The notes under the pieces: model-generated
The model's database searches: none
Told to the model about the DNA's origin: nothing
The model's input: the letters and a program-made list of their open reading frames with translations, nothing else
Part shown: piece by piece, positions 35,605-44,628 of the stretch
Layout of the letters: every line of letters starts with the position of its first letter
How positions within the stretch are numbered: position 1 is the stretch's first letter
Program-made: the position numbers and the translations under genes
DNA from: Flavobacteriales bacterium
GTDB lineage: Bacteria; Bacteroidota; Bacteroidia; Flavobacteriales_F; PHOS-HE28
DNA: 64,000 nucleotides
Assembly (NCBI GenBank): GCA_016788295.1
Contig: JAEUSY010000004.1
Span: forward strand, 186,001 to 250,000
Reading direction: 5' to 3'

Positions 35605-35618
35605 ATGACGCTTGTCAT
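35605..35618. promoter_or_regulatory. Dyad site 2 over the arsR start
   Basis: ATGACGCTTGTCAT has 5-bp arms, and its core (35606-35617) has the same TGAC-N4-GTCA form as site 1. It lies just downstream of the promoter and overlaps the start codon. Its centre is 53 bases, about five helical turns, from that of site 1. Confidence 0.6.
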
Positions 35619-35931
35619 GTCGATGGCAACCTTGGACCAACGCATAGGCACCGAAAAGCTGACGAAGGTCAGTGAACTACTGCGCGTAGTGGCCCATCCA
35701 CAACGTCTGGCGCTCTTGGATGCGCTGGCCGACGGTGAACGCAAGTGCAATCGTGAGCTACAGGAACTGCTGGGTATTGAGCAGGCCATCCTGAGCCAAC
35801 ACCTGACCCTGATGAAGGACCGCGGCGTATTGGCTTGCTCCAAGGAAGGCAAGTACACCTTCTGGGTAGTAAAACGACCTGAACTGCTGAAGATCCTCTC
35901 GTGCATGGAGGATTGCTGCGACAAGCTCTGA
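35617..35931 (+). CDS. ArsR-type transcriptional regulator of the sulfur island
   Basis: A 104-residue winged-helix repressor of the ArsR family, with the DNA-reading helix region LGIEQAILSQHLTLMKDRGVL and a C-terminal wing. Cysteines lie at 44, 74, 96, 100 and 101. From memory, persulfide sensors BigR and SqrR use a pair near 41-42 and 107-108; Cys44 with one of the C-terminal cysteines could form an equivalent switch (inference). ATG 35617 is chosen because the earlier in-frame ATG at 35605 lies within dyad site 2. TauE, a persulfide dioxygenase and YeeE-type proteins follow, as in the BigR operon of Xylella. Confidence 0.85.
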   Translation: MSMATLDQRIGTEKLTKVSELLRVVAHPQRLALLDALADGERKCNRELQELLGIEQAILSQHLTLMKDRGVLACSKEGKYTFWVVKRPELLKILSCMEDCCDKL

Positions 35932-35941
35932 ACACTGGACC

Positions 35942-36748
35942 ATGGAACTGCTCGGCTACATCGGCGCGATACTCATGGGTCTGTCCCTTGGCCTCATCGG
36001 AGGTGGGGGCAGCATCCTAACAGTACCCATTCTTGTCTATTTGTTCCTGATCGATCCGGTGCTGGCCACGGCCTATTCCCTCTTCATTGTGGGCCTCACG
36101 AGCTTGATCGGCAGTTTCAGCCACATGCGGCTGGGCAACATTCACTGGCGCACGGCCATCGTGTTCGGCATACCCAGCATTGCGGCCGTGTATGCCACAC
36201 GCGCTTGGCTGGTGCCCGCCATACCCGACCCCATCTTCACCCTGGGCACCACGGCGATCAGCAAGGCCATCGGCATCCTGGTGTTCTTTGCGCTCATCAT
36301 GGTAGCCGCAGCGTATAGCATGATCCGCAAGCAGAAGGCGGCCAGCACTGCTGCCTCAGGTGAAGAAGTACGATTCAACTATCCGTTGATCCTGGCCGAA
36401 GGGTCCATTGTAGGCATGGTCACCGGCATTGTGGGCGCAGGCGGCGGATTCCTCATCATTCCCGCGCTCGTGCTCCTAGCCAAGCTGCCCATGAAACAGG
36501 CCGTGGGCACATCGCTGATCATCATTGCAGCAAAGTCGCTCATTGGCTTCACGGGCGACCTGAAAGGCCATGAGGTGATCGACTGGAATTTCCTGCTCAC
36601 CTTCTCAGCAATTGCCGTGGTAGGGATCCTTGCGGGCAGCATGCTGAGCAAACGTATTCCCAACGAGAAACTGAAACCCGCATTCGGCTGGTTCGTGCTG
36701 GTGATGGGTGTCTACATCATCGCAAAGGAACTCTCCAAACTCAACTGA
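35942..36748 (+). CDS. TauE/SafE family sulfur-compound permease
   Basis: A 268-residue polytopic membrane protein of the TauE/SafE family, which exports small sulfur-containing anions such as sulfite and sulfoacetate. Both internal repeats carry the family glycine motif: SLGLIGGGGSILTVPILVYL near the N terminus and GIVGAGGGFLIIPALVLLAKLPMKQA in the second half. It starts 10 bases after the regulator stop, so the two genes form one transcript. In this context it may export sulfite produced by the persulfide dioxygenase (inference). A palindrome with terminator character follows. Confidence 0.88.
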   Translation: MELLGYIGAILMGLSLGLIGGGGSILTVPILVYLFLIDPVLATAYSLFIVGLTSLIGSFSHMRLGNIHWRTAIVFGIPSIAAVYATRAWLVPAIPDPIFTLGTTAISKAIGILVFFALIMVAAAYSMIRKQKAASTAASGEEVRFNYPLILAEGSIVGMVTGIVGAGGGFLIIPALVLLAKLPMKQAVGTSLIIIAAKSLIGFTGDLKGHEVIDWNFLLTFSAIAVVGILAGSMLSKRIPNEKLKPAFGWFVLVMGVYIIAKELSKLN

Positions 36749-36809: not shown

Positions 36810-36826
36810 ACAGGCAGGATGCCTGT
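36810..36826. repeat. Hairpin ACAGGCAGGATGCCTGT
   Basis: Perfect 7-bp arms and a GGA loop, 19 bases before the persulfide dioxygenase ATG. It has the style of the other short intergenic palindromes in this window. Confidence 0.5.
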
Positions 36827-36845
36827 AGAACAACAACCCTCCCCC

Positions 36846-38261
36846 ATGAAGATCGAACAGATTTACACCGGCTGCCTGGCACAAGGCGCCTACTATATCG
36901 AGAGCAACGGCGAGGCCGTGATCATCGATCCACTGCGCGAAACGCAACCCTACACAGAGCGCGCAGCGCAGAGCGGAGCCACCATCAAGTATGTGCTGGA
37001 GACGCACTTCCACGCGGATTTCGTGAGCGGCCACCTGGACCTGAGCAAGAAGACCGGCGCACCCATTGTGTACGGCCCCAATGCCAACCCACAGTTCGAG
37101 GCGCACGTTGCCAAGGATGGCGAGGTGCTCACCGTCGGTAATGTGACCATCACCGTGCTGCATACGCCCGGCCACACCATGGAAAGCACCACCTACCTGT
37201 TGAAGGATGAGAGCGGAAAGCCGCATGCGATCTTCAGTGGGGACACCCTCTTCATCGGCGATGTAGGCCGCCCGGACCTCGCCCAGAAAATGGGCTCTTT
37301 GACGCAAGAGGACCTGGCCGGCTACCTCTACGACAGCCTGCACAACAAGATCATGACCCTGCCCGACGACGTGATCGTGTACCCCGCGCACGGTGCTGGT
37401 AGCGCCTGCGGCAAGAACATGAGCAAGGAGACCTGGGATACGCTGGGCAACCAGAAGAAGAACAACTATGCGCTGAAAGCCGCCACCAAGGAGCAGTTCA
37501 TCAAGGAGGTGACCGACGGCCTGTTGCCCCCACCCGCCTATTTCCCGCAGAACGTGGCCATGAACAAGGGCGTGATCGAAAGCGTGGACACAGTGAAGGA
37601 AAAGGGCCTGCGCGCATTGACACCGGACCAGTTCGAGCTCGTTGCTGAAACAGAAGGTGCGCTGGTGCTCGATACCCGCGGAGCACAGACCTTCAAGGAC
37701 GGCTTCGTGCCCCGCAGCATCAACATCGGTATCAAGGGCGACTTCGCCCCCTGGGTGGGTGCCATGATACCCGATGTGAAGCACCCGCTGTTGCTGGTGA
37801 CGGACGAAGGCATGGAAGACGAAGTGGTGACGCGCCTCGCACGCGTAGGCTACGACAACGTGTTCGGCTATCTCAAAGGCGGCGTGGATGCATGGAAGGC
37901 CAGCGGCAAGGACACGGACACCATCGAGAGCATCTCCGCTGAGGAATTCGCGGATCGTTTCCACGCCAACAAGCTCCGGGTAGTGGACGTGCGCAAGGAC
38001 GGCGAATACGAAGCTGAACATGTTGATGGAGCCTGGCATGCCTCGCTTCAGTACATCAACCAGAACCTCGCCGCCTTCAGCAAGGACGAGACCAACTACA
38101 TCCACTGCGCTGGCGGATACCGCAGCATGGTGGCGGCCAGCCTGCTGAAGTCACGTGGTTACCACAATGTGATCGATGTTGCCGGTGGGTTCAACGCCAT
38201 CAAGAACAACACGGATGTGAAGGTGACGGACCATGTCTGCCCATCCACGCTCAAGAAGTAA
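36846..38261 (+). CDS. CstB-like persulfide dioxygenase with two rhodanese domains
   Basis: A 471-residue fusion. The N-terminal MBL-fold persulfide dioxygenase has THFHADFVSGH (His54, His56, Asp58), His110, Asp133 and His182 as metal ligands. A first rhodanese-like domain (about 260-350) has LLVTDEGME where the active Cys should be, so it is inactive. A second rhodanese domain (about 360-455) has the catalytic loop IHCAGGYRS with Cys421. This order, with a dead middle domain, is that of Staphylococcus CstB, which turns persulfides into thiosulfate. The thiosulfate could feed the TsdA/SoxB-like proteins downstream. ATG 36846 is the best start. Confidence 0.88.
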   Translation: MKIEQIYTGCLAQGAYYIESNGEAVIIDPLRETQPYTERAAQSGATIKYVLETHFHADFVSGHLDLSKKTGAPIVYGPNANPQFEAHVAKDGEVLTVGNVTITVLHTPGHTMESTTYLLKDESGKPHAIFSGDTLFIGDVGRPDLAQKMGSLTQEDLAGYLYDSLHNKIMTLPDDVIVYPAHGAGSACGKNMSKETWDTLGNQKKNNYALKAATKEQFIKEVTDGLLPPPAYFPQNVAMNKGVIESVDTVKEKGLRALTPDQFELVAETEGALVLDTRGAQTFKDGFVPRSINIGIKGDFAPWVGAMIPDVKHPLLLVTDEGMEDEVVTRLARVGYDNVFGYLKGGVDAWKASGKDTDTIESISAEEFADRFHANKLRVVDVRKDGEYEAEHVDGAWHASLQYINQNLAAFSKDETNYIHCAGGYRSMVAASLLKSRGYHNVIDVAGGFNAIKNNTDVKVTDHVCPSTLKK

Positions 38262-38372: not shown

Positions 38373-38936
38373 ATGATCGAGACCCTCAAACAACCCTGGA
38401 CCTGGTACGTGGCCGGTGCGCTCATTGGCCTCACCGTTCCTTATCTGTTGCTGGTCGGTAACAAGACATTCGGCATCAGCAGTTCGTTGCGTCATTTGTG
38501 CGCTGCGTGCATACCCGGGAACGTGAAGTTCTTCAAGTACGACTGGAAGAAGGAATCCTGGAACTTGTTCTTCGTCGGCGGGATCGCCATTGGCGCATTC
38601 CTTGCGGCCAACTTCCTGAGCAACCCTGACCCCATCGTTCTGGCCGAGAGCACCCAGCAATACCTCGCCACCAAAGGCATTACTGACACATCGAGCCTGC
38701 TTCCGGCGCAGATCTTCAGCTGGGACCAGCTCTTCACGGTCCGCGGCCTGATCTTCTTCGTCATCGGCGGTTTCATGGTGGGCTTCGGCACCCGCTATGC
38801 CGGCGGTTGCACCAGCGGACACGCCATCATGGGCCTTAGCAGCCTGCAATGGCCCAGCCTTGTAGCCACCATGAGCTTCATGATCGGCGGTATGCTCATG
38901 ACGTGGTTCATCCTCCCCCACCTCCTCACGCTCTGA
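38373..38936 (+). CDS. YeeE/YedE family protein, first half
   Basis: A 187-residue membrane protein with about four or five helices. It has the YeeE/YedE hallmark GFGTRYAGGCTSGHAIMGLS (about residues 140-160) with its conserved Cys, and an extra HLCAACIPG Cys pair. The family includes the thiosulfate importer TsuA, whose cysteines relay thiosulfate through the membrane, and the SoxT proteins. The neighbouring gene encodes the complementary half, so the two should form one transporter. Uptake of thiosulfate or other sulfane-sulfur compounds is the best guess. Confidence 0.87.
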   Translation: MIETLKQPWTWYVAGALIGLTVPYLLLVGNKTFGISSSLRHLCAACIPGNVKFFKYDWKKESWNLFFVGGIAIGAFLAANFLSNPDPIVLAESTQQYLATKGITDTSSLLPAQIFSWDQLFTVRGLIFFVIGGFMVGFGTRYAGGCTSGHAIMGLSSLQWPSLVATMSFMIGGMLMTWFILPHLLTL

Positions 38937-38939
38937 ACA

Positions 38940-39458
38940 ATGGCACACTCCTTCCAACACACCCCCACGCCGCAGGAGATCGCCGACCTGCAGACCCGTG
39001 AGCTCGATTCCATCTGTGTCAATGAAAGCGAACTCGTACACCCTTGGTGGTACAACCTGAAATACAGTGCCTGGGGCGTGCTCTTTGGCATCGTGTTCTT
39101 CAAGGCCGAGATCATCAGCTGGTTCCGTATCCAGGAGATGTTCCGCTTCGAAAGCTTCCATATGTACGGCGTGATCGGCACTGCGGTGGTGGTGGGCATG
39201 ATCAGCGTGCAGCTCATCAAGCGCTTCAAGTTGAGGACCATCTATGGCGAGGAGATCCACATCCCCAACAAGGAATTCAACAAGGGACAGATCTTCGGAG
39301 GCCTGCTCTTCGGCCTGGGCTGGGCCGTTACCGGTGCGTGTCCGGGGCCGTTGTTCGCGCAGGTGGGCGCGGGGTATTCCGTGATCATCGTGACCTTCCT
39401 GAGCGCTTGGCTGGGGACTTACATCTACGGCGTGTTCCGCGACAAGCTTCCCCACTAA
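38940..39458 (+). CDS. YeeE/YedE family protein, second half (DUF6691-like)
   Basis: A 172-residue membrane protein starting 3 bases after the first half. A soluble N-terminal stretch (about residues 1-40) precedes hydrophobic helices. The matching Cys motif is GLGWAVTGACPGPLFAQVGAG, the TGACPGP form usual in DUF6691/YeeE-B halves. HIPNKEFNKGQIFGGLLFG is also typical of the split form. Together the two halves rebuild a full YeeE-type channel. Split pairs of this kind often accompany persulfide dioxygenase and BigR-type regulators. Confidence 0.87.
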   Translation: MAHSFQHTPTPQEIADLQTRELDSICVNESELVHPWWYNLKYSAWGVLFGIVFFKAEIISWFRIQEMFRFESFHMYGVIGTAVVVGMISVQLIKRFKLRTIYGEEIHIPNKEFNKGQIFGGLLFGLGWAVTGACPGPLFAQVGAGYSVIIVTFLSAWLGTYIYGVFRDKLPH

Positions 39459-39482: not shown

Positions 39483-40574
39483 ATGATCATTCCCATCATC
39501 ATCCTCATCTCCGCACTGCTGGTACTGGTGGTGATGTACGTACTGGACGACGCGCTGCGCGTGATGAACGAACGCGCAGGACTCGCTCCAGGCAAGGGAA
39601 TGGTGTGGTCCAAACGCATCGTGTGGGCGTTGCTCCTTGCGGTAGTGGCACAGTTCTTCATACCCGCCGACCTGTTCGAACCGCCCCCACCCCAGCAAGC
39701 CCTGTACAACGCCGACAGCCTGTGGACCGGTGCGGATACAACGCGTCTTACCTACTTGGATAAAGACCAACGTGAACTGATCCGCTACGGCCAGGAGCTG
39801 ATACGCAACACGGCGCACTACCTCGGCCCCAAAGGCACGGTGATGCAAGGCACCAACGGCATGAACTGCCAGAACTGCCATCTGGATGCCGGCACCAAGC
39901 CATGGGGCAACAACTACGGCGCTGTGTGGAGCACCTATCCCAAATTGCGTGCACGAAGTGGGAAGCTGGAGACCGTTGCCAAACGTGTGAACGATTGCTT
40001 TGAGCGCAGCCTGAACGGCACGGCGCTGGACACCACGAGCAGGGAGATGCAGGCGATACTGGCCTACATGCAATGGCTGGGGACCGGGATCAACAAAGGA
40101 GAAAAAGCCAAAGGCAGCGGCATTGTCGAGCTCGCCTTCATGGACCGTGCTGCAGACCCTGAACAGGGTGCACGGATCTACAGCGGCAAATGCGCCAGTT
40201 GTCATGGTGCCGAAGGACAAGGTGTCCTAAAGGCTGATGGTAATACCTATCAGTACCCGCCGCTCTGGGGACCACACAGCTACAACCAAGGCGCAGGGCT
40301 TTTCCGAATGAGCCGGTTCGCCGGGTACGTGAAGGCCAACATGCCCTTGGGTGCAACTTGGAACACGCCAATGCTCAGCGATGAGGAGGCATGGGACCTT
40401 GCCGCATACGTGAATTCCCAACAACGACCTTCGAAAGACCTCACCGGCGATTGGCCAGACATCAGCAAGAAGCCCATTGACCATCCATTCGGACCATATG
40501 CTGACGCCTTCACTGAGCAACAGCACAAGTTCGGGCCTTTCGGTCCGATAGCCGCCTACTACAAAAAGCCATGA
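39483..40574 (+). CDS. tsdA: Diheme thiosulfate dehydrogenase, TsdA-like
   Basis: A 363-residue diheme c-type cytochrome. Heme sites are CQNCH (129-133) and CASCH (237-241). VNDCFERSLNG supplies Cys172, the kind of heme-1 Cys ligand that marks TsdA, and YVKANMPLG supplies Met287 as a possible heme-2 ligand. WGPHSYNQGAG and AYVNSQQRP are also TsdA-like. TsdA joins two thiosulfates to tetrathionate or does the reverse. Two N-terminal hydrophobic segments (about 3-20 and 47-60) suggest a membrane-anchored periplasmic enzyme, whereas classic TsdA is soluble. Its stop overlaps the next ATG as ATGA. Confidence 0.85.
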   Translation: MIIPIIILISALLVLVVMYVLDDALRVMNERAGLAPGKGMVWSKRIVWALLLAVVAQFFIPADLFEPPPPQQALYNADSLWTGADTTRLTYLDKDQRELIRYGQELIRNTAHYLGPKGTVMQGTNGMNCQNCHLDAGTKPWGNNYGAVWSTYPKLRARSGKLETVAKRVNDCFERSLNGTALDTTSREMQAILAYMQWLGTGINKGEKAKGSGIVELAFMDRAADPEQGARIYSGKCASCHGAEGQGVLKADGNTYQYPPLWGPHSYNQGAGLFRMSRFAGYVKANMPLGATWNTPMLSDEEAWDLAAYVNSQQRPSKDLTGDWPDISKKPIDHPFGPYADAFTEQQHKFGPFGPIAAYYKKP

Positions 40575-42358
40575 GCGAGATCCACCACCCACCAGGCTGC
40601 ACGTGCGGCGCGCATGATGAAGCATCCTACAACCTTAGCCGGAGACAAGCGCTGAAGTCGCTTGGCGCTTTGGGTGCTGGGCTCACCTTGGGGCCCACTG
40701 TGGCCATGGGCTCCATGGGTAATGCGCAAAGCCGTGACGAGATCATCCGCTCAACTGCCCTTCGCGCAGGCAAGGCCGAGAAGTTCAGCATCCTCTTCAC
40801 CAGTGACATCCACTCGCAATTACACACACACGACGAGTTCTTCTTGGAGAATGGCAAGCCAGTGTACAAAAAACGAGGCGGCTATGGTGTGTTGAAGACG
40901 ATGATCGACACGCTGCGCAACGAGGACCCGGCGAACACCATTGTGATCGATGGCGGCGATTGTTTCCAAGGTGGTGGTGTTGCGGCAAAGAGCGAAGGGC
41001 GCGCGATCGTGCCGCTGATGAACAAGGTGGGCTACGACCTGCTTTTGCCAGGCAACTGGGAAGTAGTGTACGGCAAGGAGAACATGCTGAAGGACCTGGG
41101 CGGCTACAAAGGGGCGAAGATCTGTGCCAATATGTGGCACGAGAAAGTGTTCGAAGGCTGCCCTCCATCCAGCGATCTGCAAAGTGAGCTCGTTGGCGAG
41201 CTCATCTTCCCGCCCTATTGGACCAAGGTGGTGGCCGGCGTGAAGATCGGTTTCATCGGTTATAACGACCCGCTAACACCAAAGCGCCAATCGCCGGCCT
41301 ACAGCTGCGGCATCAAGTTCACCAAGCCAGACCTGAACGTTGCGCGCTACATCCGCCACCTGCGTGACTATGAACAGTGCGCCATGGTCTTCCTTGTCAC
41401 GCACATGGGCCTTGCGCAGCAAGTCGATCTCGCGAACAAGAACGTGGTGGATGGCGTGGACATGATCCTCGGAGCGGACACACATGAGCGCGTACGGACG
41501 CCCATTGATGCCAGGTACAGCAAAGTGGTTGAGCCGGGAGCCTTTGGGTCGTTCCTTGCGCGCCTCGATGTGGTGGTGGAGAACGGCGTGGTGAAGGACA
41601 GCCACTACGAGCTGTTGGACGTGGACCCCGAGAAATACCCGGCCGACAAGGACATGCTCGCGTTGGTGGATGAAGTGAGCGCGCCCTATATGGAGAACCT
41701 GAGCAAGGTGGTGGGCAGCACCAAGAGCACACTGGTGCGCTACTACGTGATCGAGAACCCCATGGACAACTTGATCACGGACGCGCTGATGTGGAAGCTC
41801 AAACCAGACATTGCGATCAGCAACGGCTTCAGGTTCTGCCCGCCGATCGTGGCCGATGGCAAGACGCCAACCCCGATCACCAACGACCATCTCTGGAGCA
41901 TGATACCGGTGGACAGCGATGCGAAGTACGGCGAAGCGACCGGTCGCCAGATCTGGGATTGGCTGGAGAAAGAGCTGCACAATGTGTTCGCGAAGGATCC
42001 GGCCAAACGCTTTGGCGGATGGGTGGTGCGCTTCAAAGGCATGACCGCCAACTTCACCATGAACAACGACCTGGGGAAGCGTGTGAACTGGATCAAGGTG
42101 GGAGGCAAGCCCATCGACCTGGAGCAGTACTACACCATAGCCGCGTGCGAACGCGAAGGAGACCCGGACCACGTGCTCTGCCGTATGGAACATGTCCGCA
42201 ACCCACGCCTGGCCGGCATCACCATGCACACCATCCTGCGCGACTACTTCGGCAAGTTCAGTCCGGTGGCACCGAAAGTCGAAGGACGTATCACTGCCAC
42301 CGATGCGCCGCAAACGCTGTTGAGCCAATTGGAGGGATATGATTACGAATTCCGGTGA
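40571..42358 (+). CDS. SoxB-like Tat-exported metallophosphatase-family protein
   Basis: A 595-residue protein of the 5'-nucleotidase/SoxB family. A twin-arginine signal (SRRQALK, residues 24-30, then GALGAGLTLG) predicts folded export through TatC. Metal-site motifs are SDIHSQLH, DGGDCFQGG and GNWEVVYG. The usual GGHTH is GADTHERV here, so one ligand His appears replaced by Asp. A C-terminal nucleotidase-type domain follows. SoxB hydrolyses thiosulfate-derived sulfate from SoxYZ, but no soxYZ, soxA, soxX or soxC is in the window, so the carrier is unknown. Overlap with the TsdA gene implies coupled synthesis. Confidence 0.8.
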   Translation: MSEIHHPPGCTCGAHDEASYNLSRRQALKSLGALGAGLTLGPTVAMGSMGNAQSRDEIIRSTALRAGKAEKFSILFTSDIHSQLHTHDEFFLENGKPVYKKRGGYGVLKTMIDTLRNEDPANTIVIDGGDCFQGGGVAAKSEGRAIVPLMNKVGYDLLLPGNWEVVYGKENMLKDLGGYKGAKICANMWHEKVFEGCPPSSDLQSELVGELIFPPYWTKVVAGVKIGFIGYNDPLTPKRQSPAYSCGIKFTKPDLNVARYIRHLRDYEQCAMVFLVTHMGLAQQVDLANKNVVDGVDMILGADTHERVRTPIDARYSKVVEPGAFGSFLARLDVVVENGVVKDSHYELLDVDPEKYPADKDMLALVDEVSAPYMENLSKVVGSTKSTLVRYYVIENPMDNLITDALMWKLKPDIAISNGFRFCPPIVADGKTPTPITNDHLWSMIPVDSDAKYGEATGRQIWDWLEKELHNVFAKDPAKRFGGWVVRFKGMTANFTMNNDLGKRVNWIKVGGKPIDLEQYYTIAACEREGDPDHVLCRMEHVRNPRLAGITMHTILRDYFGKFSPVAPKVEGRITATDAPQTLLSQLEGYDYEFR

Positions 42359-42413: not shown

Positions 42414-42827
42414 ATGAAGAAGCTCCTTCTCCTCCTCGTCCTTTTCATCGGCTTCACCGCACACGCCCAGGACAAGCCCACGCATCACCGCATCGTAATG
42501 CAGCTCACCAGCGGCGATTCGCTGGTGCATAAGAACATGATGAAGCAGATCCGCAACATGAAGGAAGCCGCGCCCACCATGGAACTCGAGATCGTTTGCC
42601 ATGGCCCCGGCATGGACCTGCTGATGAGCGACCGCAGCACGGTTGCCGCCAAAGTGAAAGAGTTCGCGGCGCAAGGCATTGTGTTCCTTTCTTGTGAGAA
42701 CACCATCAAGGAACGGAACCTCGATCGTTCGAAGGTCCTTTCTGAAGCGGGGTATGTGAAGGCGGGCATTATCCACATCGTGGAGCGGCAGGAACAGGGC
42801 TGGAGCTACATCAAGGCAGGCTTCTGA
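42414..42827 (+). CDS. Periplasmic DsrE-family protein
   Basis: A 137-residue protein from ATG 42414. A signal peptide (MKKLLLLLVLFIGFTAHAQ) precedes a DsrE/F-like fold: HRIVMQLTSGDSLVHKNMMKQIRNM, then the strand-loop MELEIVCHGPGMDLL and VFLSCENTIKERNL. The Cys in FLSCENT lies where DsrE-type sulfur carriers hold their active Cys; the second Cys (IVCHGPG) is near the dimer cleft in relatives. Exported DsrE-like proteins are poorly studied. Here it may carry sulfane sulfur for the SoxB-like protein (inference). It starts a transcript of its own and is followed by the porin gene. Confidence 0.82.
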   Translation: MKKLLLLLVLFIGFTAHAQDKPTHHRIVMQLTSGDSLVHKNMMKQIRNMKEAAPTMELEIVCHGPGMDLLMSDRSTVAAKVKEFAAQGIVFLSCENTIKERNLDRSKVLSEAGYVKAGIIHIVERQEQGWSYIKAGF

Positions 42828-42840
42828 TCCGATCCATCGC

Positions 42841-44235
42841 GTGCTTCGCAACCTCGGCATTTTCCTTTTCGTGCTGTCCAGCGTGCTGGTGCAAGCGCAG
42901 CAGACCGACCAGGATCTGCCGCCAAGCGACACCCTGAAGCAAGGCGCCCCCCTGCCCGATGTGATCCGCAACGGCACGCTCGAAGGTCGATTCAGGCTCT
43001 TTCTCATGGGAACCCTGAACGATGGCGCTCCTTCGGATTACCACGCACAGGCTTTTGGGGGATCATTGGGCTTCTCTTCGTTGCGCTGGCATGGCTTTCA
43101 ACTTCGCATGAGCGGAGGATACACCTTCGACCTATGGAGTTCCGACCTGACGAGGCCCGACGCAGCGACAGGGATCCCCAACCGCTACGAGATCGGCCTG
43201 TTCGATGTGACAGATCCGCGCAGCGACAACCAGCTCGCCTACGTGCACCTCTTTCAGGTCAACTACCGATCGCGCAACGAAAGGTCCTCTATCGTCTTCG
43301 GTCGGCAAGAGCTGACAACACCGTTCATTAATGCGCAGGATGGTCGCATGCACCCCGGGCTTGCAGAGGGCTTGTGGAGCACGCATAAGAGCAAGAAAGG
43401 CCTGCGCCTCGAGGGCGGGTTCATCTATCGCATGGCGCCGCGATCAACGGCTGCTTGGTATGCGATAGAGCGCACCTTCGGGCTGTATCCAGTAGGCATC
43501 GGTGTGGATGGCAGGTCAAGCCGGTACGCAGGGAACACCACGACACCCGGTATCGCCATGGCAGGCATCACAGCACCTCTAAAGCAGAAGATCACCATCA
43601 CTGGCTGGAACATGCTCGTGGCGAACGTCTTCAATTCGGCCATGCTACAGGTGGAGCGTGGTGCACGTGATGACCGCTGGATGTTCGGTGCTATGGCCGT
43701 GCGACAAGACCGCATTACCAACGGGGGTAATACAGCGGACAGCCTGGCCTATTTCCAGAGCGATGCATCCATGACCTTCAGTGGCCGCGTTCGCATGAAC
43801 CTCGGCCGCTTCCGCTGGCAGGCCAACTACACGCGTATCACGGCCGATGGTCGTTACCTGGTACCGCGCGAATGGGGCCGGGACCCGTTCTACACCTTTC
43901 TACCGCGCGAACGCAACGAAGGCTTTGGCGATGTGCATGCCGCCACACTTAACCTGATCTGGCGCACCAAGAGCGGGTGGCGAGTCCAAGCGGATGTGGG
44001 CCATTACTGGTTGCCCGCTATCAGCAACGTCAGGCTGAACAAATATGCCTTCCCGGCCTACCAGCAATTCGACGTGAACGCACAGTACCAGTTCAAGGGA
44101 AGTTGGAAAGGCCTTGCGGCACAGTTCATCTATCTGGTGAAGCTGCCGATGCCTGGCGCCATTTACACCGAACGGCAGGCTGTGAACAAGGTGGACATGC
44201 ACCACGCGGAGATCATCGTGAACTACGCGTTCTGA
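42841..44235 (+). CDS. OprD-like outer-membrane porin
   Basis: A 464-residue outer-membrane protein from a GTG start, 13 bases after the dsrE-like gene. A signal peptide ends VLVQAQ. The barrel contains VFGRQELTTPFINAQDGRMHP, the conserved segment of OprD-family (PF03573-like) porins, and ends with an aromatic (IIVNYAF), as barrel proteins do. OprD-type porins admit small anionic or amphiphilic solutes. Co-transcription with a periplasmic sulfur protein suggests passage of sulfur oxyanions such as thiosulfate or tetrathionate (inference). Confidence 0.78.
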   Translation: MLRNLGIFLFVLSSVLVQAQQTDQDLPPSDTLKQGAPLPDVIRNGTLEGRFRLFLMGTLNDGAPSDYHAQAFGGSLGFSSLRWHGFQLRMSGGYTFDLWSSDLTRPDAATGIPNRYEIGLFDVTDPRSDNQLAYVHLFQVNYRSRNERSSIVFGRQELTTPFINAQDGRMHPGLAEGLWSTHKSKKGLRLEGGFIYRMAPRSTAAWYAIERTFGLYPVGIGVDGRSSRYAGNTTTPGIAMAGITAPLKQKITITGWNMLVANVFNSAMLQVERGARDDRWMFGAMAVRQDRITNGGNTADSLAYFQSDASMTFSGRVRMNLGRFRWQANYTRITADGRYLVPREWGRDPFYTFLPRERNEGFGDVHAATLNLIWRTKSGWRVQADVGHYWLPAISNVRLNKYAFPAYQQFDVNAQYQFKGSWKGLAAQFIYLVKLPMPGAIYTERQAVNKVDMHHAEIIVNYAF

Positions 44236-44248
44236 AGCACGGCATTGT

Positions 44249-44262
44249 GTGACGGACATCAC
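44249..44262. promoter_or_regulatory. Dyad site 4 upstream of the rhodanese gene
   Basis: GTGACGGACATCAC; with the preceding T it reads TGTGA-N6-TCAC. The core (44250-44261) ends 24 bases before the -7-like CAACTTTG. It lies just after the porin stop. Confidence 0.6.
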
Positions 44263-44285
44263 CGCTGCGCCACTCTCGCTCAGAA

Positions 44286-44293
44286 CAACTTTG
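44286..44293 (+). promoter_or_regulatory. -7-like element CAACTTTG of the rhodanese gene
   Basis: One mismatch to TAnnTTTG, 23 bases before the rhodanese ATG. No -33 TTG is seen. Confidence 0.45.
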
Positions 44294-44316
44294 CGATCAA
44301 ACAACCACAAGATCAA

Positions 44317-44628
44317 ATGGGCATTCTTCAAACCCTGTTCGGCATCGGCGGCCCCAAAGTGGACATCGCCCAAAAGATCAAGGAAGGCGCCATCATCATT
44401 GATGTGCGTACACCAGAGGAGTTCAGGTCTGGCCATGTGAAGGGCTCCATCAACATCCCGTTGGACAAGGTGCAAGTGCAGCTGGGCAAGATCAACAAGA
44501 CCAAGCCGATAATAACATGCTGCCGCAGTGGTGCCCGCAGTGGCATGGCCGCCGATGTGCTCAAGCGCAACGGGTTCGAGTGTTACAATGGAGGCGCATG
44601 GACCACCGTCCGCGCCATGAAAGGATGA
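44317..44628 (+). CDS. Single-domain rhodanese
   Basis: A 103-residue cytoplasmic sulfurtransferase. It has the rhodanese entry motif IIIDVRTPEEFRSGHVKGSINIPLD and the active-site loop CCRSGARS with catalytic Cys69, preceded by a second Cys at 68. It transfers sulfane sulfur from thiosulfate or a persulfide carrier to thiol acceptors. It has no signal peptide. Its TGA overlaps the ATG of the next gene as ATGA. It carries its own promoter with the shared dyad, so it is probably controlled together with the rest of the island. Confidence 0.9.
   Translation: MGILQTLFGIGGPKVDIAQKIKEGAIIIDVRTPEEFRSGHVKGSINIPLDKVQVQLGKINKTKPIITCCRSGARSGMAADVLKRNGFECYNGGAWTTVRAMKG

Follow-up and report, generated by a model that had tools for sequence, protein, structure and literature searches.

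Gene content of the locus

The window analysed here is a stretch of 64,000 nucleotides from a Flavobacteriales genome (contig JAEUSY010000004.1, positions 186,001 to 250,000). It carries, all on one strand and in this order, arsR, a TSUP gene, an MBL-rhodanese gene, two YeeE/YedE halves (PmpA-like, then PmpB-like), tsdA, a soxB-like gene, dsrE, an oprD-like gene and a rhodanese gene (Table 1). PmpA and PmpB are halves of YeeE-type sulfur importers, PmpA being the C-terminal one (PMC11582611). In the genus of the window arsR is the first gene of the operon. The reading frames of tsdA (363 residues) and of the soxB-like gene (595 residues) were rechecked in the window, and the stop of the former shares an ATGA with the start of the latter at 40571-40574, exactly as the first-pass annotation had stated. 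For dsrE, the true start is probably at 42414, where the frame opens with a signal peptide (MKKLLLLL...), rather than at the longest-frame start at 42339. A search for conserved neighbours returned no SoxAX-, SoxCD- or SoxYZ-like cluster. The other conserved neighbours were Crp/Fnr-, thioredoxin-, SQR- and MFS-like genes along with housekeeping genes, named by reading the sequences.

Table 1. Genes of the operon in the window, with the number of long loci (out of 48) in which each was present
Feature	Coordinates	Strand	Basis	Long loci (of 48)
ArsR-family repressor, BigR-like, candidate sulfane-sulfur sensor	35605..35931	+	PF01022; BigR model 48 bits, under its cut-off	
TSUP (TauE/SafE) permease, candidate sulfite exporter	35942..36748	+	PF01925, 154 bits	34
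MBL-fold protein with two rhodanese domains, persulfide dioxygenase-like (as SdoA/SdoB)	36819..38261	+	3tp9, E 3.5e-70; ETHE1, 1.6e-19	36
YeeE/YedE half, PmpA-like (C-terminal half)	38373..38936	+	PF04143, best stretch at profile positions 251-310	
YeeE/YedE half, PmpB-like (N-terminal half; DUF6691)	38940..39458	+	PF04143 profile positions 10-103; PF20398	
TsdA, diheme thiosulfate dehydrogenase, two hydrophobic N-terminal stretches	39483..40574	+	Homologue and heme-site comparison	
SoxB-like metallohydrolase with Tat signal, family A	40571..42358	+	Family models, structure model, tree, motifs	
Exported DsrE-family protein	42414..42827	+	PF02635; signal-like N-terminus; best solved relative ST0148	
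OprD-like outer-membrane porin	42841..44235	+	PF03573	24
Single-domain rhodanese	44245..44628	+	PF00581	26 (rhodanese cluster)

The cytochrome carries the signatures of TsdA

The best solved relatives of the window cytochrome are TsdA of Allochromatium vinosum (E = 4e-48) and chain 5lo9 (2e-42), SoxA reaching 9e-4. CXXCH heme sites are found at 129 and 237. In the alignment of homologues from related loci, Cys172, R158, R168 and S176 are kept in 67 out of 67 sequences and Met287 in 66, the remaining one being unread at this position. Cys172 and Met287 occupy the heme-1 and heme-2 ligand positions, both of which mark TsdA. The window protein thus shares with the TsdA of A. vinosum and Campylobacter jejuni the two CXXCH motifs, the Cys ligand of heme 1, the Arg/Arg/Ser residues and the Met ligand of heme 2. 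With every TsdA signature tested in place, the cytochrome is by sequence a TsdA, as had been proposed in the first pass, and by its closest solved relatives it does not group with SoxA or other diheme cytochromes. It differs from the A. vinosum and C. jejuni enzymes by two hydrophobic N-terminal stretches (residues 1-19 and about 41-60), which probably form a membrane anchor.

The neighbour of Met287 is Asn286 and not Lys, and Asn is found in 63 of the 67 homologues. TsdA of C. jejuni, a tetrathionate reductase, has the corresponding Asn beside its heme-2 Met ligand (PMC5146829). This likeness could suggest that the window TsdA is mainly a tetrathionate reductase serving respiration or detoxification, and that the SoxB-like enzyme handles other polythionates. 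However, although the heme-2 surroundings influence the direction of the C. jejuni enzyme, exchanging its Asn for Lys gave no adaptation to thiosulfate oxidation (PMC5146829). The Asn alone does not set the direction and, because this exchange does not switch the enzyme to oxidation, the direction of the reaction cannot be read from the sequence. The persulfide dioxygenase-like protein and the candidate sulfite exporter of the operon, on the other hand, fit oxidation, and we regard a mainly reductive role as unlikely.

The SoxB-like protein belongs to a clade separate from canonical SoxB

SoxB (TIGR04486) is the best NCBIfam model for the SoxB-like protein, with a score of 250 bits that lies under the 550-bit cut-off, and SoxB of T. 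thermophilus is its best solved relative (E = 1e-27); the initial SoxB-like label was well chosen. The top fold match of an AlphaFold2 model (mean pLDDT 82) was SoxB 2wdc (E = 8e-40), but the fold alone is not decisive, because nucleotidases rank close behind the SoxB structures. A tree was computed for 35 proteins including the family of the window protein (family A), canonical SoxB, a second group of SoxB-like proteins from Sphingobium, Bosea, Bradyrhizobium, Pontibacter and Hymenobacter (family B) and sampled 5'-nucleotidases. Family A and canonical SoxB each formed a clade with 100/100 support, and a 100/99 branch separated these two and family B from all sampled 5'-nucleotidases but one. 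The exception, a haloarchaeal sequence labelled nucleotidase, fell inside the SoxB side on a long branch. A Pontibacter paralogue initially placed with family B is nucleotidase-like.

In nucleotidases of the UshA type, the His of the GNHE/D motif is catalytic. All family A members have a Trp at this position (Trp163, GNWE), and Arg421 is invariant, as in SoxB. These features bear on the idea that the protein is a periplasmic nucleotidase, or another phosphoesterase, present in a sulfur operon by chance. It does belong to the same superfamily, carries a 5_nucleotid_C domain and is annotated 5'-nucleotidase in public records, but the replacement of the catalytic His in all members, the conserved SoxB Arg, the position in the tree outside the 5'-nucleotidases and the sulfur genes surrounding the soxB-like gene in nearly every full-flank locus make this reading very improbable.

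With SoxB of the Sox system (TIGR04486; PDB 2wdc, 4uwq) family A shares the fold, the active-site Trp and Arg and the twin-arginine signal. It differs in scoring less than half the cut-off, in belonging to a genome without SoxYZ partner and in two active-site positions, Asn162 and Asp303 (the latter missing in one member, L052), where SoxB and most of family B have His (xHWE and GHTH motifs). We take the two His to be metal ligands from what is known of the superfamily; since these two positions differ from SoxB, activity or substrate may differ as well. The DxH-GG spacing is 21 residues in all of family A compared with 63 in the five SoxB examined, and family A is devoid of an insertion of about 42 residues present in all five. 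Family B resembles family A in its SoxB-type Trp and Arg, its short DxH-GG spacing and, for several members, its sulfur-gene neighbourhood, but mostly keeps the His at the metal-ligand positions and is about 30% identical to the window protein. Judged by tree and motifs, the window protein is not a canonical SoxB; it falls in a separate, fully supported clade of Bacteroidota.

Conservation of the tsdA-soxB-like pair

In a set of 58 genomes, which included 34 congeners of the window genome, the SoxB-like gene was found in 19 and TsdA in 18, in a nested fashion: TsdA occurred in none of the 39 genomes devoid of the SoxB-like gene, and in the single SoxB-like genome without TsdA the contig starts inside the soxB-like gene. 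In a sample of 395 Bacteroidota genomes, with family A genes counted at over 500 bits, family A was present in 19, TsdA in 44 and both in 14. TsdA was thus found in 14/19 family A genomes versus 30/376 others (Fisher p = 4e-11), so that five of the 19 had no TsdA and 30 of the 44 TsdA genomes had no SoxB-like gene. The association of the two genes is not due to chance.

Loci were also gathered from a scan of 84,980 species genomes, in which 558 relatives were confirmed and the best 80 returned. Within about 10 kb, the 40 full-flank loci contained tsdA (39), MBL-rhodanese (32), TSUP (30), pmpA-like (30), dsrE (23) and oprD (21) genes. The pair on which the first-pass annotation had rested its proposal is therefore conserved, and the set of tsdA, soxB-like, MBL-rhodanese, TSUP and pmpAB genes recurs in Flavobacteriales, Chitinophagaceae, Sphingobacteriales and Cytophagales, with plasmid-borne copies in Runella and Pontibacter. 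Cultivable carriers include Lacibacter cauensis and Runella, the SoxB-like protein of Runella slithyformis being WP_013931303.1. The ATGA overlap was seen in 6 of 37 adjacent tsdA/soxB-like pairs, all from the genus of the window, the gap elsewhere being 2-138 bases; production of the two proteins in a fixed ratio, previously deduced from this overlap, is hence no general property of the pair.

Some loci depart from this arrangement. In some members of the genus (L026, L027, L028), dsrE is set apart from the soxB-like gene by an insertion of about 1.7-2.3 kb. In Hymenobacter NBH84 (L149), a family B protein replaces family A in a plasmid-borne sulfur cluster, while the same cluster in Hymenobacter GOD-10R (L152) reads tsdA-oprD-dsrE and, over the portion examined, contains no SoxB-like gene. 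The hydrolase of this cluster thus seems to be exchangeable.

Absence of SoxYZ and the possible role of the DsrE-family protein

Searches with SoxY and SoxZ profiles gave no match in the genome of the window or in 57 relatives. SoxZ was likewise undetected in 42 further genomes bearing a SoxB-like gene, and SoxY in 23, while both searches found their genes in Paracoccus versutus, used as positive control. The lack of detectable SoxYZ first noticed at the locus therefore holds for the whole genome and for its relatives.

In SoxY the Cys is borne by a C-terminal arm. The DsrE-family protein has a signal-like N-terminus and one invariant Cys in the alignment, the internal C94, and its C-terminus contains no Cys. 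It had been suggested to replace SoxYZ as covalent carrier, in which case it would be loaded by TsdA (or by the SoxB-like enzyme) and the SoxB-like enzyme would then strip off sulfate. Its export, its invariant Cys and the gene order of Runella, where dsrE is flanked by tsdA and the soxB-like gene, agree with such a role. Nevertheless, dsrE was detectable in only 23 of the 40 full-flank loci as against 39 for tsdA, the Cys is not on a C-terminal arm, the SoxB-like protein has no SoxB-specific insertion, the GOD-10R cluster combines dsrE with tsdA in a stretch free of a SoxB-like gene, and Erythrobacter flavus mutants act on supplied tetrathionate (PMC9426585). On the alignment and the locus counts, DsrE was set aside as a carrier, and we consider this role improbable.

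Published precedent and proposed pathway

A thiosulfate route combining TsdA and SoxB without SoxYZ has been demonstrated genetically in E. flavus 21-3 (PMC7608252, PMC9426585). In that strain, TsdA converts thiosulfate to tetrathionate, SoxB yields sulfate and zero-valent sulfur, and SdoA/SdoB act next. Deletion of tsdA abolished thiosulfate use in culture (PMC7608252, PMC9426585), but the mutant still made S0 from supplied tetrathionate (PMC9426585); deletion of soxB led to tetrathionate accumulation (PMC7608252) and to no detectable S0 in the medium (PMC7608252, PMC9426585). The action of SoxB on free tetrathionate was apparently deduced from these mutants and not from purified SoxB (PMC7608252, PMC9426585). 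The three SoxB homologues of E. flavus are annotated metallophosphatase/5'-nucleotidase or 5'-nucleotidase/3'-nucleotidase, the one of the pathway being a 'bifunctional metallophosphatase/5'-nucleotidase' (PMC7608252, PMC9426585), and family A proteins of Runella bear much the same annotation. The same authors already noted Bacteroidetes genomes with both tsdA and soxB (PMC7608252), and a 2025 sediment study takes TsdA-to-SoxB as an assumed route (PMC12345210). The route that the first-pass annotation called new is in essence published.

E. flavus 21-3 and the window have in common TsdA, a SoxB-like hydrolase annotated 5'-nucleotidase, the absence of a Sox multienzyme system and an MBL-rhodanese dioxygenase in the cluster. 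Unlike in E. flavus, tsdA and the soxB-like gene of the operon described here are usually adjacent, in a compact arrangement with pmpAB, TSUP, OprD and often DsrE genes. The E. flavus SoxB (D0Y83_01365, CP032228) is likened to family A by annotation and context.

The identity of TsdA, its SoxB-like partner, the conservation of the pair, the lack of detectable SoxYZ and the thiosulfate/tetrathionate role proposed earlier are all supported. We propose, with a probability of roughly 0.6, that this Bacteroidota operon is dedicated to thiosulfate oxidation without a Sox carrier. Thiosulfate would enter through the OprD-like porin, and TsdA, probably anchored to the membrane, would couple two thiosulfates into tetrathionate and hand the electrons on. 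As for the reaction and substrate of the Tat-exported SoxB-like enzyme, we infer that hydrolysis may take place at the sulfonate end, either of free tetrathionate or of an organic S-thiosulfonate derived from it, to give sulfate and sulfane sulfur. The latter would reach the cytoplasm via PmpAB, where the MBL-rhodanese persulfide dioxygenase would oxidise it, and the resulting sulfite would leave through TSUP. DsrE and rhodanese, where present, could serve as auxiliary sulfane handlers, and the operon would be switched on by ArsR, or by a Crp/Fnr regulator in other lineages.

The substrate could instead be protein- or glutathione-bound S-sulfonates arising from sulfite or polysulfide chemistry. 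What canonical SoxB recognises on SoxYZ is a conjugate that contains a sulfane (PMC5336275), and some genomes with the SoxB-like gene have no TsdA, but the very tight linkage to tsdA points to the TsdA product as the source of the substrate, and bound S-sulfonates seem to us an unlikely choice.

Compared with the published route, what is new on the sequence evidence is a distinct SoxB-like family with changed metal-ligand positions, encoded in a conserved and sometimes plasmid-borne Bacteroidota operon. More tentatively, the window protein may stand for a so far unrecognised family of thiosulfohydrolases that need no carrier, have an altered metal site (Asn/Asp in place of His/His) and are specialised for free tetrathionate. 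This family would have spread across Bacteroidota together with tsdA, in part on plasmids, and been missed by SoxB-based surveys under its 5'-nucleotidase annotation. If so, many heterotrophic Bacteroidota would oxidise thiosulfate by a route that surveys based on SoxB or SoxYZ genes overlook, because the score of the enzyme is less than half the cut-off for SoxB and its records read 5'-nucleotidase. The compact and recurrent tsdA-soxB-like operon would offer a clean test of the ability of SoxB-type enzymes to use free tetrathionate.

Of 46 family A proteins, at least 35 have a CxC or CxCxxC motif upstream of the twin-arginine signal, on the side expected to be cytoplasmic. In the window it falls within the first 18 residues of the SoxB-like protein (40571-40624), and L078, L080, L100, L112 and others have it too; it was not seen in the N-terminus of Paracoccus SoxB. 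Gram-positive relatives of the SoxB-like protein with GNWD motifs are present on plasmids of Sporosarcina psychrophila (L162) and Cohnella herbarum (L163). The Sporosarcina gene lies near TusA, TSUP and MBL genes, hinting at a further hydrolase lineage in sulfur operons.
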